From positions 1 through 42,401 of the forward strand of contig JAAETT010000646.1 of the NCBI GenBank assembly GCA_024228115.1: a DNA stretch of 42,401 bases, in the 5' to 3' direction. Source of the DNA: a bacterium (GTDB lineage Bacteria; Myxococcota_A; UBA9160; UBA6930). The notes below the pieces were generated by a model that searched no databases, was not told the DNA's origin, and saw nothing but the letters and a program-made list of their open reading frames with translations. Positions 14,389 to 18,164 of the stretch are shown here, piece by piece; position 1 is the first letter of the stretch, and each line of letters starts with the position of its first letter. Made by a program: the position numbers and the translations under genes.

Positions 14389-15618
14389 CTAGGCCTCCGG
14401 TGTGAAGCGGACCTTCATTTCCGCGCACGTTCGAACCAGGGCCGAGGGGACGAGGACCGGCCCTCCCGCCGTGTACTCCATATCCGGCAGTCGGCGCAGG
14501 ATCTCCTGGATAGCCACGCGCATCTCCATGCGGGCCAGGTTGGCACCGAGGCAGAAGTGATTGCCGATGCCGAAACCCAGGTGGTGGGGAGCGCGATCGA
14601 TGTCGAAGCGATCCGGGTCGTCGAACTGGCGCTCGTCCCGGTTGGCCGAGGGATAGAGCAGCAGCACCGTCTGGCCGGCTTTGATCTTCTGATCGCCGAG
14701 CTCGGTGTCGCGGGTGGCCGTACGCCCGAAGGAGCGCACCGGCGTGGCGAGGCGGACCATTTCTTCGACGGCATTGGGAATCAGGGACGGGTCGTCGATC
14801 AGGCGCTGCCGGGCTTCGGGGTTTTCGATGAGCAGCTGCATGCCGGCGGAGATCCCGTTCCGGGTCGTCTCGTTCCCCGCGACCATCAGGATGACCATCA
14901 GCTTGATCAGCTCGTCGTTCTGCAGATCCGGGTCGCCGATGGCATCAGTGGTGGGACCTGTCTCGTCGTACTTCTTCAGCAGACCCGAATCCTTGGCGCC
15001 GGTGAGGATGCTGACAAGGTCGTCCTTGGGGTTCTTGCGCCGATCCTCGATGATGGGCGTGACGTAGGTTGCGTATTCGAGGTAGGACTGGCCGGCACGG
15101 GCCGTGATGACCGGATCATCCATGTTGCCGTCCGCGGCAATCATGGTGTCCGACCAGTGGTGGAATTTGTCATAGTCCGCGTCGCGGATCCCGATCATCG
15201 CAGCGATCAGGCGGAGGGGCAGGGGAACTGCGATTTCCGTGACGAACTCGCACTCGCCCTTGGCCGCTACGCTATCGATCGCTTCGTCCGTGATCTCGCG
15301 GAACGTCTTCTCGAGGATCTTCACCATCCGCGGGGTGAATCCCTTGTTGATCATGCCGCGCAGCTGACCGTGGCGGGGCTCCTCTTCGTCGATCAGGCCG
15401 AGCTTGACGTCGTTACCGGGGCGCACGCCGAGGCCAGACGTAAAGGTCGCCTGATCCTTCGACACCGCGACGACATCGTCGAAGTTGGCGACGGTCCACA
15501 GCTCATCCTTCTCGGACCAGCGCACGGGCTCGTTCTGGCGAAGCCAGCGCATGCGCTCGAGCATGGCCTCCTCTTCCCAGTTTCCGGAATCGAGGTATGC
15601 GATATCGGCATCGACCAT
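14389..15618 (-). CDS. Cytochrome P450
   Basis: This 409-residue soluble bacterial P450 has all the diagnostic elements. The I-helix oxygen-activation motif is AGNETT (247-252), the K-helix E-x-x-R is EMVR (286-289), and the heme loop is FGIGNHFCLG with the heme-ligating Cys356. The EEPRHGQLRGMINKGFTPRM segment is the C-helix heme contact. It hydroxylates or otherwise oxidises a hydrophobic substrate with electrons from ferredoxin or flavodoxin; no redox partner is adjacent. The ATG at 15618 is chosen because AAGGAGAA lies just upstream; an in-frame TTG 15 bases earlier would overlap that site. The start is 11 bases after the tetR gene stop, so the two form one operon. Confidence 0.95.
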   Translation of the reverse strand: MVDADIAYLDSGNWEEEAMLERMRWLRQNEPVRWSEKDELWTVANFDDVVAVSKDQATFTSGLGVRPGNDVKLGLIDEEEPRHGQLRGMINKGFTPRMVKILEKTFREITDEAIDSVAAKGECEFVTEIAVPLPLRLIAAMIGIRDADYDKFHHWSDTMIAADGNMDDPVITARAGQSYLEYATYVTPIIEDRRKNPKDDLVSILTGAKDSGLLKKYDETGPTTDAIGDPDLQNDELIKLMVILMVAGNETTRNGISAGMQLLIENPEARQRLIDDPSLIPNAVEEMVRLATPVRSFGRTATRDTELGDQKIKAGQTVLLLYPSANRDERQFDDPDRFDIDRAPHHLGFGIGNHFCLGANLARMEMRVAIQEILRRLPDMEYTAGGPVLVPSALVRTCAEMKVRFTPEA

Positions 15619-15629
15619 GGGGTTCTCCT

Positions 15630-16292
15630 TCAAGAGCGAACGGGCTTGTGGTCGAATAGGGCTTCGACCAGGCGGGTGAGAAGGCGGATCTGTCGGGCGC
15701 GAGACTCCGGCGTAGAGAGGTCATCGCCGGAAACCTCGCGGTAGAACGGTGTGATCGAGTGAAAGCCGACGATCACGTGGTAGAGGGCGAGAACGAAGAG
15801 CGGGATCTCCTCCGGTTCGAAACGGCCGGCATCATCGGCTGCCCTCACGGTCTCGAAGGCCCGGCCGAAAAGCGGTGCAAACCGACGCCGGAGGACGGGT
15901 GTGAGCCTGCGTCCGCCGGTCTGGGTCTCCTGGAGAAGCAGGGCCGGGAGGTTCGGGTGGCGCTCGAGAAGTGCCATGACTTGGCTGATCACATCGGCAT
16001 GTTCGGGGCGCTCATTCACGGGTGCCGCGAGAAAGCCGTTCAGGATGTCGAGCACCGGGTCTACGCCGCGGTCGAGGACCGCCGCGTAGAGCAGCTCCTT
16101 GCTCTCGAAATGGTTGTAGAGGCTCGGGATCCGCAAGCCGGCTGCAGCCGCCACATCGCGAAGGGAGGCTCCTGCGTAGCCCCTCTCGGCGAACAACGAC
16201 TCCGCCGCGTCCAGGATGCGTGTCGCCGTCAGCTCTCCCTTGCGCGCGGGCGCAGAGGCAGGCTCGGTGAGAGGGGAGGCGATTTGGGACAC
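15630..16292 (-). CDS. TetR family transcriptional regulator
   Basis: This 220-residue protein has the TetR helix-turn-helix at about residues 20-65. ATRILDAAESLFAERGYAG is helix 1, and SLRDVAAAAGLRIPSLYNHF is the recognition region with the usual Y-x-H/Y-F, followed by SKELLYAAV. The rest is an all-helical ligand-binding domain. It starts with GTG. It is co-transcribed with the P450 directly downstream and probably represses the operon through the near-palindrome at 16309-16324 until a ligand binds. Confidence 0.92.
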   Translation of the reverse strand: MSQIASPLTEPASAPARKGELTATRILDAAESLFAERGYAGASLRDVAAAAGLRIPSLYNHFESKELLYAAVLDRGVDPVLDILNGFLAAPVNERPEHADVISQVMALLERHPNLPALLLQETQTGGRRLTPVLRRRFAPLFGRAFETVRAADDAGRFEPEEIPLFVLALYHVIVGFHSITPFYREVSGDDLSTPESRARQIRLLTRLVEALFDHKPVRS

Positions 16293-16308
16293 CCGGCAAT
16301 AAAAACTA

Positions 16309-16324
16309 ACGATCGATCGCTCGT
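16309..16324. promoter_or_regulatory. Candidate TetR operator upstream of tetR-P450
   Basis: ACGATCGA/TCGCTCGT is a 16-base near-palindrome with seven of eight paired positions matching. It starts 17 bases upstream of the tetR GTG codon, the usual place for an autoregulatory TetR site. A nested GATCGATC palindrome is also present. Confidence 0.45.
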
Positions 16325-16338
16325 CAAGTACCCCGCGG

Positions 16339-16449
16339 GGAATAAGTCAACAAACGGGGACGGGGTTTACAATTGACTTGTTGAAACGGGGCAATGCCCC
16401 GTTTCAACAAGTCAATTGTAAACCCCGTCCCCGTTTGTTGACTTATTCC
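16339..16449. repeat. Perfect 54-bp inverted repeat with a 3-base spacer (REP/MITE-like)
   Basis: Bases 16339-16392 are an exact reverse complement of 16396-16449, with AAT between them. The arms contain GGGGACGGGG and, nearer the middle, a CAATTG core. Each arm has its own smaller inverted repeat (AAGTCAA with TTGACTT, and TCAACAA with TTGTTGA), so alternative folds exist. GGGGAC-rich palindromes scattered between genes are typical of REP elements mobilised by RAYT transposases in proteobacteria, but no RAYT gene is in the window. The right arm includes the stop codon of fabA (16443-16445), so the insertion probably supplied the current stop. The transcript would form an extremely stable hairpin that may also end transcription. 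Confidence 0.85.
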
Positions 16450-17033
16450 GTTGTCTTGCCGCCGATCGAGTTCGGAGAGTGCTTGGGGTAATCCGGGTAG
16501 TCGATTCCACGGAAGACGCCGACCTTGGCGCGCTTCAGGGTGTAGATCTCCTCGTCGTCGACGAGCACCGAGGCATCCCCGATCACGATGCTGGCGCCAC
16601 TTGCCGGCAGGCTGACGAAGCGCACGATCTTCACCTCGTAGCGCACCACCTTGTTGTAGGGACGAATCTCCCCGCCGAAATCCACCTCACCCACGCCGAG
16701 GGCGCGCCCCCCACCGATTCCACCGTTCCAGGCGCAATACATCCCGAGCATCTGCCACACGGCGTCGACACCCAGGCAACCCGGTTGCACCGGGTCGCCG
16801 CGGAAATGGCATTGGAAGAACCAATCGTCGAGACGCACGTCGCGCTCGGCCGTCATCGCGCCCTTGTTGCCTTTTCGGGAGATGTGGGTGACGCGGTCGA
16901 TCATCAGCATCGGGGGGATCGGAAGGCGTGTGACGAAGCCATCCGGCGGATCTTCGATCAGCGTCCCGTGGCCGAGAGCGAGAACCTCTTCCTGGTCGAA
17001 ATGGTCTCGCTGGCAGAATTCGTCGTACTTCAT
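16443..17033 (-). CDS. fabA: 3-hydroxydecanoyl-ACP dehydratase/isomerase
   Basis: This 196-residue protein is a single hot-dog-fold FabA. WFFQCHFRGDPVQPGCLGVD contains catalytic His76 and Asp90, matching His70 and Asp84 of E. coli FabA. IPPMLMIDRVTHI, GRALGVGEVDFGGEI and KRAKVGVF are also conserved. The family dehydrates 3-hydroxyacyl-ACP and, in its classic form, isomerises trans-2-decenoyl-ACP to cis-3 to begin unsaturated fatty acid synthesis. No fabB is next to it. It is about 24 residues longer than E. coli FabA, split between the N-terminus and a C-terminal tail (DYPDYPKHSPNSIGGKTTE). The stop codon lies inside the large inverted repeat. Confidence 0.95.
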   Translation of the reverse strand: MKYDEFCQRDHFDQEEVLALGHGTLIEDPPDGFVTRLPIPPMLMIDRVTHISRKGNKGAMTAERDVRLDDWFFQCHFRGDPVQPGCLGVDAVWQMLGMYCAWNGGIGGGRALGVGEVDFGGEIRPYNKVVRYEVKIVRFVSLPASGASIVIGDASVLVDDEEIYTLKRAKVGVFRGIDYPDYPKHSPNSIGGKTTE

Positions 17034-17096
17034 GCCGGAGAGGTTCGCACAGGCGCATCGGGCCGTGTGTAATTTTCCTGTCGAGACGCTGGCTTC

Positions 17097-18164
17097 TCAG
17101 TCGCCGCTGATTTCGATCGCGTCGGACCCAGCTGGCAGGGAGACCCGAACCCCATCCTTGCCCAGCGTGAAGCCACCCTCGTAGGCGTCATCCACACCGT
17201 CCAGGAATGCTGCGGCCAAACCGGGCACCGGCAGAGCGGGAACGACGTGGTAGAAGAGCAGGTGCCTGGCGCCAGCTCTCTGCGCAGTCTCCGCGGCTTC
17301 CACCGGGGTCGTGTGGTAGTCGAGGATGTCCGTCGTGATCTTGGCCAAGGCGGTCTGCCCCTGCTCTATTGCCGCCTCGGTAATGACCTGAACGAGATGC
17401 GCCGCAAGCGCTTCATGCACCAGAAGATCGACGTCCTTGGCCATTCGCTCGATCTCGGCCGATTGGATGGTATCGCCGCTGATGACGAGGGATCGACCCG
17501 AATAGTCGAAGCGGTAGCCGACGGCGGGGTCGATGGGCGCATGATCGACCCGGAAGGCCGTCACGCGGACGCCGTTCTCGTTCCATACCACGACGGGTTC
17601 CCCGACGGCCGGGGTCGAAAACGGACGTGCCTCGAAGCCCGCTCCAGTTGGCGGCATGGTGGCCGTACCGTGGTGAGCCACCCGGTACCCCACGTCGAGG
17701 CGGTAGGCTTCATTCAATCCGGAGGCAACACGAGCGACACCTTCGGGCCCGTACAGCGGCAGGCGCTGGTCGTCGTTTCCGCCGGCCCAATGCTGGAGCG
17801 CAAGTTCGCCGAGGCCATCGATGTGGTCGGAGTGGAAGTGGGTGAGGAAGGCCGCTTCGAGGTCGCCCGGACGCAGGCCCAACGCGATCATGTTCCGTGC
17901 GGCGGAAGACCCCGCATCGACGATGAAGAGCTGCCCACCCGCCACGACGCCGATACAGGGCCCGGAGCGCTGCGGATCGGGCAGGGGACTGCCGGCGCCG
18001 CAGAGCATCAGATGCAAGCCGTCCGGCAGGGCGCCAAGCGCGTTCGCCGTGATGGCGCGGCCTGCCGCCGCCCGCATGAGTTGCATGGCGAGGGGCGCAC
18101 GCAAGGCGTACACGCCCAATGCGACGATCGCGATCGCTCCCAGCATGAGTCCCTTGCGTCCCAT
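17097..18164 (-). CDS. Membrane-anchored MBL-fold metallo-hydrolase (RNase Z/arylsulfatase-like)
   Basis: This 355-residue protein begins with one hydrophobic anchor or signal segment (LMLGAIAIVALGVYALRAPL), so the catalytic domain is likely periplasmic. The metal site is LTHFHSDHIDGL, with H109, H111, D113 and H114 of the H-x-H-x-D-H motif. Further ligands lie in YHTTPVEAAE and LVISGDTIQ. The region LCGAGSPLPDPQRSGPCIGV matches the strand order of RNase Z-like and alkyl/arylsulfatase-type MBL proteins. The substrate is unknown. It lies 63 bases upstream of fabA on the same strand and is divergent from the methyltransferase at 18268. Confidence 0.85.
   Translation of the reverse strand: MGRKGLMLGAIAIVALGVYALRAPLAMQLMRAAAGRAITANALGALPDGLHLMLCGAGSPLPDPQRSGPCIGVVAGGQLFIVDAGSSAARNMIALGLRPGDLEAAFLTHFHSDHIDGLGELALQHWAGGNDDQRLPLYGPEGVARVASGLNEAYRLDVGYRVAHHGTATMPPTGAGFEARPFSTPAVGEPVVVWNENGVRVTAFRVDHAPIDPAVGYRFDYSGRSLVISGDTIQSAEIERMAKDVDLLVHEALAAHLVQVITEAAIEQGQTALAKITTDILDYHTTPVEAAETAQRAGARHLLFYHVVPALPVPGLAAAFLDGVDDAYEGGFTLGKDGVRVSLPAGSDAIEISGD

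Follow-up and report, generated by a model that had tools for sequence, protein, structure and literature searches.

A long palindrome at a fabA stop codon: very probably one copy of a mobile, REPIN-like hairpin family, and perhaps rewritten in place

How does a perfect palindrome of 111 bases come to lie at the end of a fabA-like gene, and what keeps its two arms in register? The palindrome occupies positions 16339-16449 of the window (the whole stretch of DNA analysed here, 42,401 nucleotides), and it leads to an old question: are REP-type repeats spread by new insertion only, or are they also homogenised in place? A repeat search of the window placed the arms at 16339-16393 and 16395-16449, each 55 nt long, 100% complementary and separated by 1 nt. 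The first-pass annotation had described arms of 54 bp around a 3-base spacer; the perfect complementarity held, and the difference in length arose because the innermost pair had been counted as spacer. Among inverted repeats with spacers of up to 10 nt this is the longest in the window by far, the next-ranked entries being the same palindrome, and arms of 54 nt are far beyond what chance would produce. Folded as RNA, the palindrome reaches -105.5 kcal/mol (z = -17.7 relative to dinucleotide-shuffled sequences). The window sequence shows no T-run 3' of the hairpin of the kind usual in intrinsic terminators, and Rfam gave 0 matches in window positions 15600-17100. Plasmid and phage collections contained no DNA similar to the palindrome, so a plasmid or phage origin was rejected.

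The repeat search and comparison with the rest of the family resolved the palindrome into two REP-like units, the left arm on the plus strand and the right arm inverted on the minus strand, and GGGGACGGGG was found in both. An outer foot, AAGTCAAC (16344-16351, plus strand), is conserved across the family, although some copies carry the symmetric variants AACGCAAC, AAGTAAAT and AACTCAAC. Inside it lies a conserved core, CGGGGACGGGGTTTACAATTGACTT, present as a left copy (16355-16379, plus strand) and an inverted right copy (16409-16433, minus strand); the CGGGGACG tag of this core also flanks a transposase gene described below. Comparison of copies marked out the middle of the hairpin as a variable central stem (16380-16408; GTTGAAACGGGGCATTGCCCCGTTTCAAC in minus-strand spelling, with a loop of 3 nt). 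Its sequence varies among copies and among orthologous loci, and its self-complementarity is kept.

The first-pass annotation had proposed searching the genome for the arm sequence, and many dispersed copies were found. The window's own genome (G000) is represented by an assembly of 6.41 Mb in 700 contigs, against which the 111-nt query gave 80 BLAST matches, each palindrome being matched as a rule on both strands. The core CGGGGACGGGGTTTACA had 51 + 44 matches at up to two mismatches, and a reversed control had 1. About 55 loci were retrieved for comparison; at least 38 are full copies and others are partial, with about fifty scattered copies overall. A full copy consists of AAGTCAAC, a short variable triplet, CGGGGACGG(G/A)GTTTACAATTGACTT, the variable central stem and then the mirror image. 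Pairing was perfect in 16 of the 38 full copies that could be analysed, and 34 mismatches were counted in 1745 pairs; the 39 centres compared comprised 32 distinct half-stems. A general claim that palindromy extends outward as copied flank was dropped, since over all copies outer palindromy is no higher than background once more than about 15 nt separate it from the core, and only the copies at L074 and L091 are clearly longer. Palindrome matches occurred in 3 of the 41 genomes searched, G000 and its relatives G003 and G004, all of one genus.

Which enzyme could have moved these copies? Contig C203 of G000 carries a gene with a Y1_Tnp profile match (328 aa; L073:1750-2736). A core motif stands at each end of this gene, both reading in the same direction, and the contig ends inside the upstream palindrome. 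The protein matches NCBIfam REP_Tyr_transpos at E 1.1e-13, which is below the model cut-off, and PF01797 at E 3.3e-10. The HVH and Tyr positions (N84, H85, H87 and Y144) were invariant among homologues in an alignment that leaves out row L141. The best fold match of the predicted model (pLDDT 66.8) was 4er8, TnpAREP bound to a REP hairpin, and the DNA-binding domain of DnaA (3pvp) was a weak further match at E 0.039. In the C-terminal part HTH_23 was matched at E 0.011, below cut-off, and Bac_DnaA_C was matched at 0.0042 in a paralogue on contig C653, a second REP-type transposase of G000 with a different repeat at both ends. The C203 protein may have a C-terminal DnaA-like domain. Most homologues in the genus and family have their own GGGG[AC]CG repeats adjoining the gene, and in seven of them (L136, L137, L139, L140, L142, L143 and L144) these repeats are inverted at both ends.

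With dispersed copies and a Y1/REP-type transposase gene bearing the core motif at both ends in one genome, the proposal of a REP- or MITE-type mobile palindrome is supported. The palindrome very probably belongs to a dispersed family of mobile hairpins that are non-autonomous and built like a REPIN from two inverted REP-like units around a self-complementary spacer. As judged from sequence, the HUH/Y1 transposase of C203 would most likely be the enzyme that spread it. G003 lacks the transposase at the orthologous locus, where on one contig the upstream gene is joined via a single REP to the end of a CBS-domain gene; the family was kept in G003 all the same, and its current mobility there is doubtful. 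The G004 homologue of the transposase has an in-frame TGA. At the orthologous locus of a further genome, G001 (L231:3054-3150, contig C396), the transposase is absent and a palindrome of another family, CGGGGACGTTGCTTTCAGAGTTGCA, is present. Distinct from the palindrome's transposase is another family of Y1_Tnp-like proteins that G000 has in multiple copies (..HGWGGRREGAGRKRGPNPRVAHLQRAPLASRHPCHVT.., loci L049-L056 on contigs C200, C20, C277, C62, C183, C333 and C61); the copies listed are nearly identical to each other.

At the locus itself, the fabA-like gene (16443-17033, minus strand; 196 aa; PF07977, E 1.2e-39) ends in the right arm. Its stop codon TAA (16443-16445, minus strand) is made by the element's TAAGTCAAC foot, and its last codon, GAA (16446-16448), also lies inside the arm, where the first-pass annotation had placed the stop and part of the last codon. 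That insertion had set the end of the protein was not upheld, however. FabA is 196 aa long in both G000 and G003 and nearly equal in length in relatives, and the idea that the element shortened or lengthened it was rejected, since homologues that lack an intact element stop at nearly the same residue. A palindrome copy also stands at the fabA stop of G003; its centre has another sequence and is nearly self-complementary, and the G003 contig stops within the copy. In G004, the fabA stop TGA is followed by GAAGGGGGCCGGAGTCAAC, which by its sequence is a relic of the G004 version of the palindrome, and the end of a convergent regulator gene comes about 20 nt further on. Because of this orthologous copy in G003 and the relic in G004, the palindrome is not recent at fabA, contrary to one of the options first offered. 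Gene comparison identified a TetR-family gene (15630-16292, minus strand) on the side of the palindrome opposite fabA, paired with a cytochrome P450 gene (14389-15633, minus strand). In G000 this pair lies between the regulator gene and the palindrome; in G004 it is absent there and located elsewhere. A palindromic ACGATCGATCG site lies upstream of the TetR gene of the pair (window 14389-16292).

Gene ends are the usual setting of the family. By a simple codon model, 23 copies have convergent neighbours, 11 tandem and 2 divergent ones, and 3 stand at contig ends. Of 60 neighbouring gene 3' ends, 57 were no further than about 60 nt from the edge of the element; many overlap the element. In many copies the overlap involves merely the last codons of genes, and the copies lie mostly outside coding sequence. 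Nineteen ORFs, some of which may not be genes, stop at the TGA that lies within an arm, and their tails resemble KSTSGDGVYN. When orthologues 75-95% identical were compared, KSTSGDGVYN or variants of it ended the proteins in G000 and in several G003 cases, and KKRGRS or a close variant did so in three G004 cases. The arms thus supply stop codons and C-terminal tails (...KSTSGDGVYN* and, in G004, ...KKRGRS*) to adjoining genes, and the notion that the element sets protein ends, which failed for fabA, applies to other genes. Many unrelated proteins are thereby seen to receive a stop codon and a short C-terminal tail from a small mobile element.

The palindromes appear to be targets themselves. 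An insertion element of about 1 kb lies inside one of them (L076:142-1143), with inward-facing ends CTGCCTATCCGATCGGCTCAGC and a 305-aa ORF, presumably an IS1595-type transposase. The CTGCCTATCCGATCGGCTCAGC end motif was also observed directly after ATTGACTT or the palindrome centre at five more loci in G000 and G003 (L107, L152, L161, L162 and L219), and from this recurrence the insertion element seems to target palindromes.

How do the copies compare between species? G004 has its own version, CGGGGCCGGAGTTAAGAATTCACTT, with 36 matches at up to three mismatches; this version was not found in G000, and G003 had only two distant matches to it. Conversely, no G000-type core was found in G004 beyond two-mismatch intermediates. 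At no fewer than eight loci, a gene end that bears the G000 version in G000 bears the G004 version in G004. Arms were 96% identical to one another in G000 and 92% in G004, and at shared loci the identity from one species to the other was 77%; the within-genome values are inflated somewhat by the type-specific patterns with which the samples were gathered, while the cross-searches argue against a hidden mixture. Eight of the approximately 28 G004 loci matched one of the approximately 55 G000 loci, against an expectation of about 1.5 if 1000 sites were equally likely (P 2e-4) or 3.1 if 500 sites are assumed (P 0.014). From these comparisons, chance sharing appears unlikely, and a strong site preference could still contribute. 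Of the 27 loci in G003, 18 were common to G000. No transposition was observed, nor any clean empty site: at the site of the first L074 copy, a partial REP is left in G003, and G004 carries a small element of the G004 type. The G004 orthologue of the L082 copy (L199 end and L193 start) has a half-arm duplicated in tandem.

Two species of one genus with different palindrome versions at the same loci make the question of in-place homogenisation directly testable. Arms were compared at six intact loci orthologous between G000 and G003, covering 216 arm positions. Eleven changes were symmetric in both arms (7 transitions and 4 transversions) and 4 were of other kinds; independent divergence at the flank level of 13% would be expected to give 1.2 symmetric and 49 other changes. 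Centres at the same locus differ between the two genomes in sequence and sometimes also in length. Species-specific variants at shared loci suggest that existing copies may be rewritten in place, a mechanism to which the pattern gives an even chance. The transposase would act on a single-stranded hairpin, as in IS200/IS605 and TnpAREP, and new copies would survive mainly at gene ends. Existing copies would then be held symmetric and alike through copying: in the folded hairpin one arm could template the other by a template switch, and a copy could be overwritten by the sequence of another, perhaps when single-stranded hairpins that have been excised anneal at a replication fork.

Symmetry might instead be kept by selection on an RNA hairpin that protects 3' ends or terminates convergent transcripts, with ordinary compensatory mutations and no copying. 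The very stable RNA fold, the position of copies at gene 3' ends and between convergent genes, and the conserved pairing of a variable centre are all in keeping with this. Yet wobble types were not in excess among the mismatches (A.C 7 and G.T 5 of 34), so that selection at the RNA level finds no backing here as the chief cause, though selection of this kind may still act. The palindrome may also have a role in RNA, as the first-pass annotation had suggested for fabA mRNA. The four transversions among the 11 symmetric changes have no route through a single G-U intermediate, orthologous loci swap centres with a change of length, no T-run follows the hairpin, and selection for pairing leaves unexplained why it is always the same core positions that have changed in G004, at every shared locus. 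Overall, this explanation is unlikely. A simpler structural role, that of a plain intrinsic or bidirectional terminator with no tie to mobile DNA, would suit a hairpin between gene ends but not the 55-nt arms, the high-copy and near-identical core, the linkage to a transposase and the absence from most relatives; it is very improbable, and the palindrome is no lone terminator. Nor is a fold-back assembly artefact at fabA more than barely credible. Assemblers do have trouble with this family, many copies of which stand where a contig breaks off; nevertheless, different genes lie on the two sides of the window copy, the same element is found at the fabA stop of G003, and dozens of loci, many with unique flanks on both sides, were recovered in three separately assembled genomes. 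The artefact was rejected in practice.

The copies of G000 and G004 at the same loci could also be independent insertions into preferred targets rather than rewritten orthologues. Elements at stop codons would look alike if inserted separately at one gene end, some pairs have edges that are a few to about ten bases apart, and repeated insertion at preferred sites could account for part of the sharing between G000 and G004. Against this, the sharing exceeds both expectations given above, two thirds of the G003 loci are common to G000, and no clear relics of either type were found in the other genome, the fabA site of G004 having a relic of the G004 type. Independent insertion is thus somewhat unlikely. 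The rewriting account holds that palindromes keep their gene ends while their sequence is rewritten from arm to arm and from copy to copy, in step with a diverging transposase, so that each species would acquire its own uniform version and its own C-terminal tails; as a whole, this account is evenly poised between right and wrong.

The palindrome resembles the REPINs of Pseudomonas, hairpins of a REP doublet with two inverted repeats and a less conserved, pairing spacer, which are extragenic and linked to an HUH/Y1 transposase (PMC3116915). Compensatory changes in the spacer have been reported for REPINs too (PMC3116915). Three of their features were found here, namely an inverted pair within one hairpin (38 full copies), dispersal, and linkage to an HUH/Y1 transposase. 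The palindrome differs in that its pairing, spacer included, is near-perfect for about 100 nt, and in its tie to a transposase that is probably of another subclass. The GTAG/GTGG tag at the foot of a REP is lacking, the foot being AAGTCAAC and the tag CGGGGACG; the palindrome is therefore called REPIN-like and not a canonical REP or REPIN. In CGTC-tagged REPs, an 8-9 bp stem with CGTC at one of its ends is closed by a loop of 4-5 nt, and there is no dedicated transposase; this long, transposase-linked hairpin differs from them.

By its features the transposase is probably of the TIRYT type, subclass 2.1. TIRYTs, or TIRtrons, have GGGGWSAS inverted repeats (PMC3733652) and belong mostly to TnpAY1 subclass 2.1 (PMC6006769). 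Shared with them are the Y1-family HUH motif and catalytic Tyr and a GGGG-tagged repeat at each gene end (PMC3733652; PMC6006769). TIRYT transposases also have an HTH or Bac_DnaA_C-type domain at the C-terminus (PMC3733652; PMC6006769), and the C203 protein may have one too. Moderately abundant dispersed copies have been reported for TIRYTs in some genomes (PMC3733652; PMC6006769), whereas the dispersed copies here are long, near-perfect REPIN-like palindromes. The motif here, GGGGACGG or GGGGCCGG, departs from the consensus at position 7 (and, for CC, also at position 5), just as the GGGG[AC]CG of most homologues, inverted at both ends, is close to but outside GGGGWSAS; the two copies adjoining the G000 gene share one direction. 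That REPs give stop codons to flanking ORFs was already known (PMC3733652).

The idea of rewriting also has precedents. In the REP orthoswitch, orthologous transposases in related strains are likewise bordered by different repeat classes (PMC3686654). That model predicts that old repeats stay and decay as new ones spread, whereas here it is the new sequence that occupies the shared loci, and in G004 no copies of the old type turned up. Gene conversion had been proposed for REP repeats by Higgins and colleagues in 1988, as cited in a later study (PMC3116915). In template-switch correction of quasipalindromes, imperfect inverted repeats are made more perfect, one arm templating the other (PMC7202029; PMC8604942). 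Such correction is familiar as a mutational process acting on individual sites; the proposal here would make it the means by which a dispersed family is maintained.
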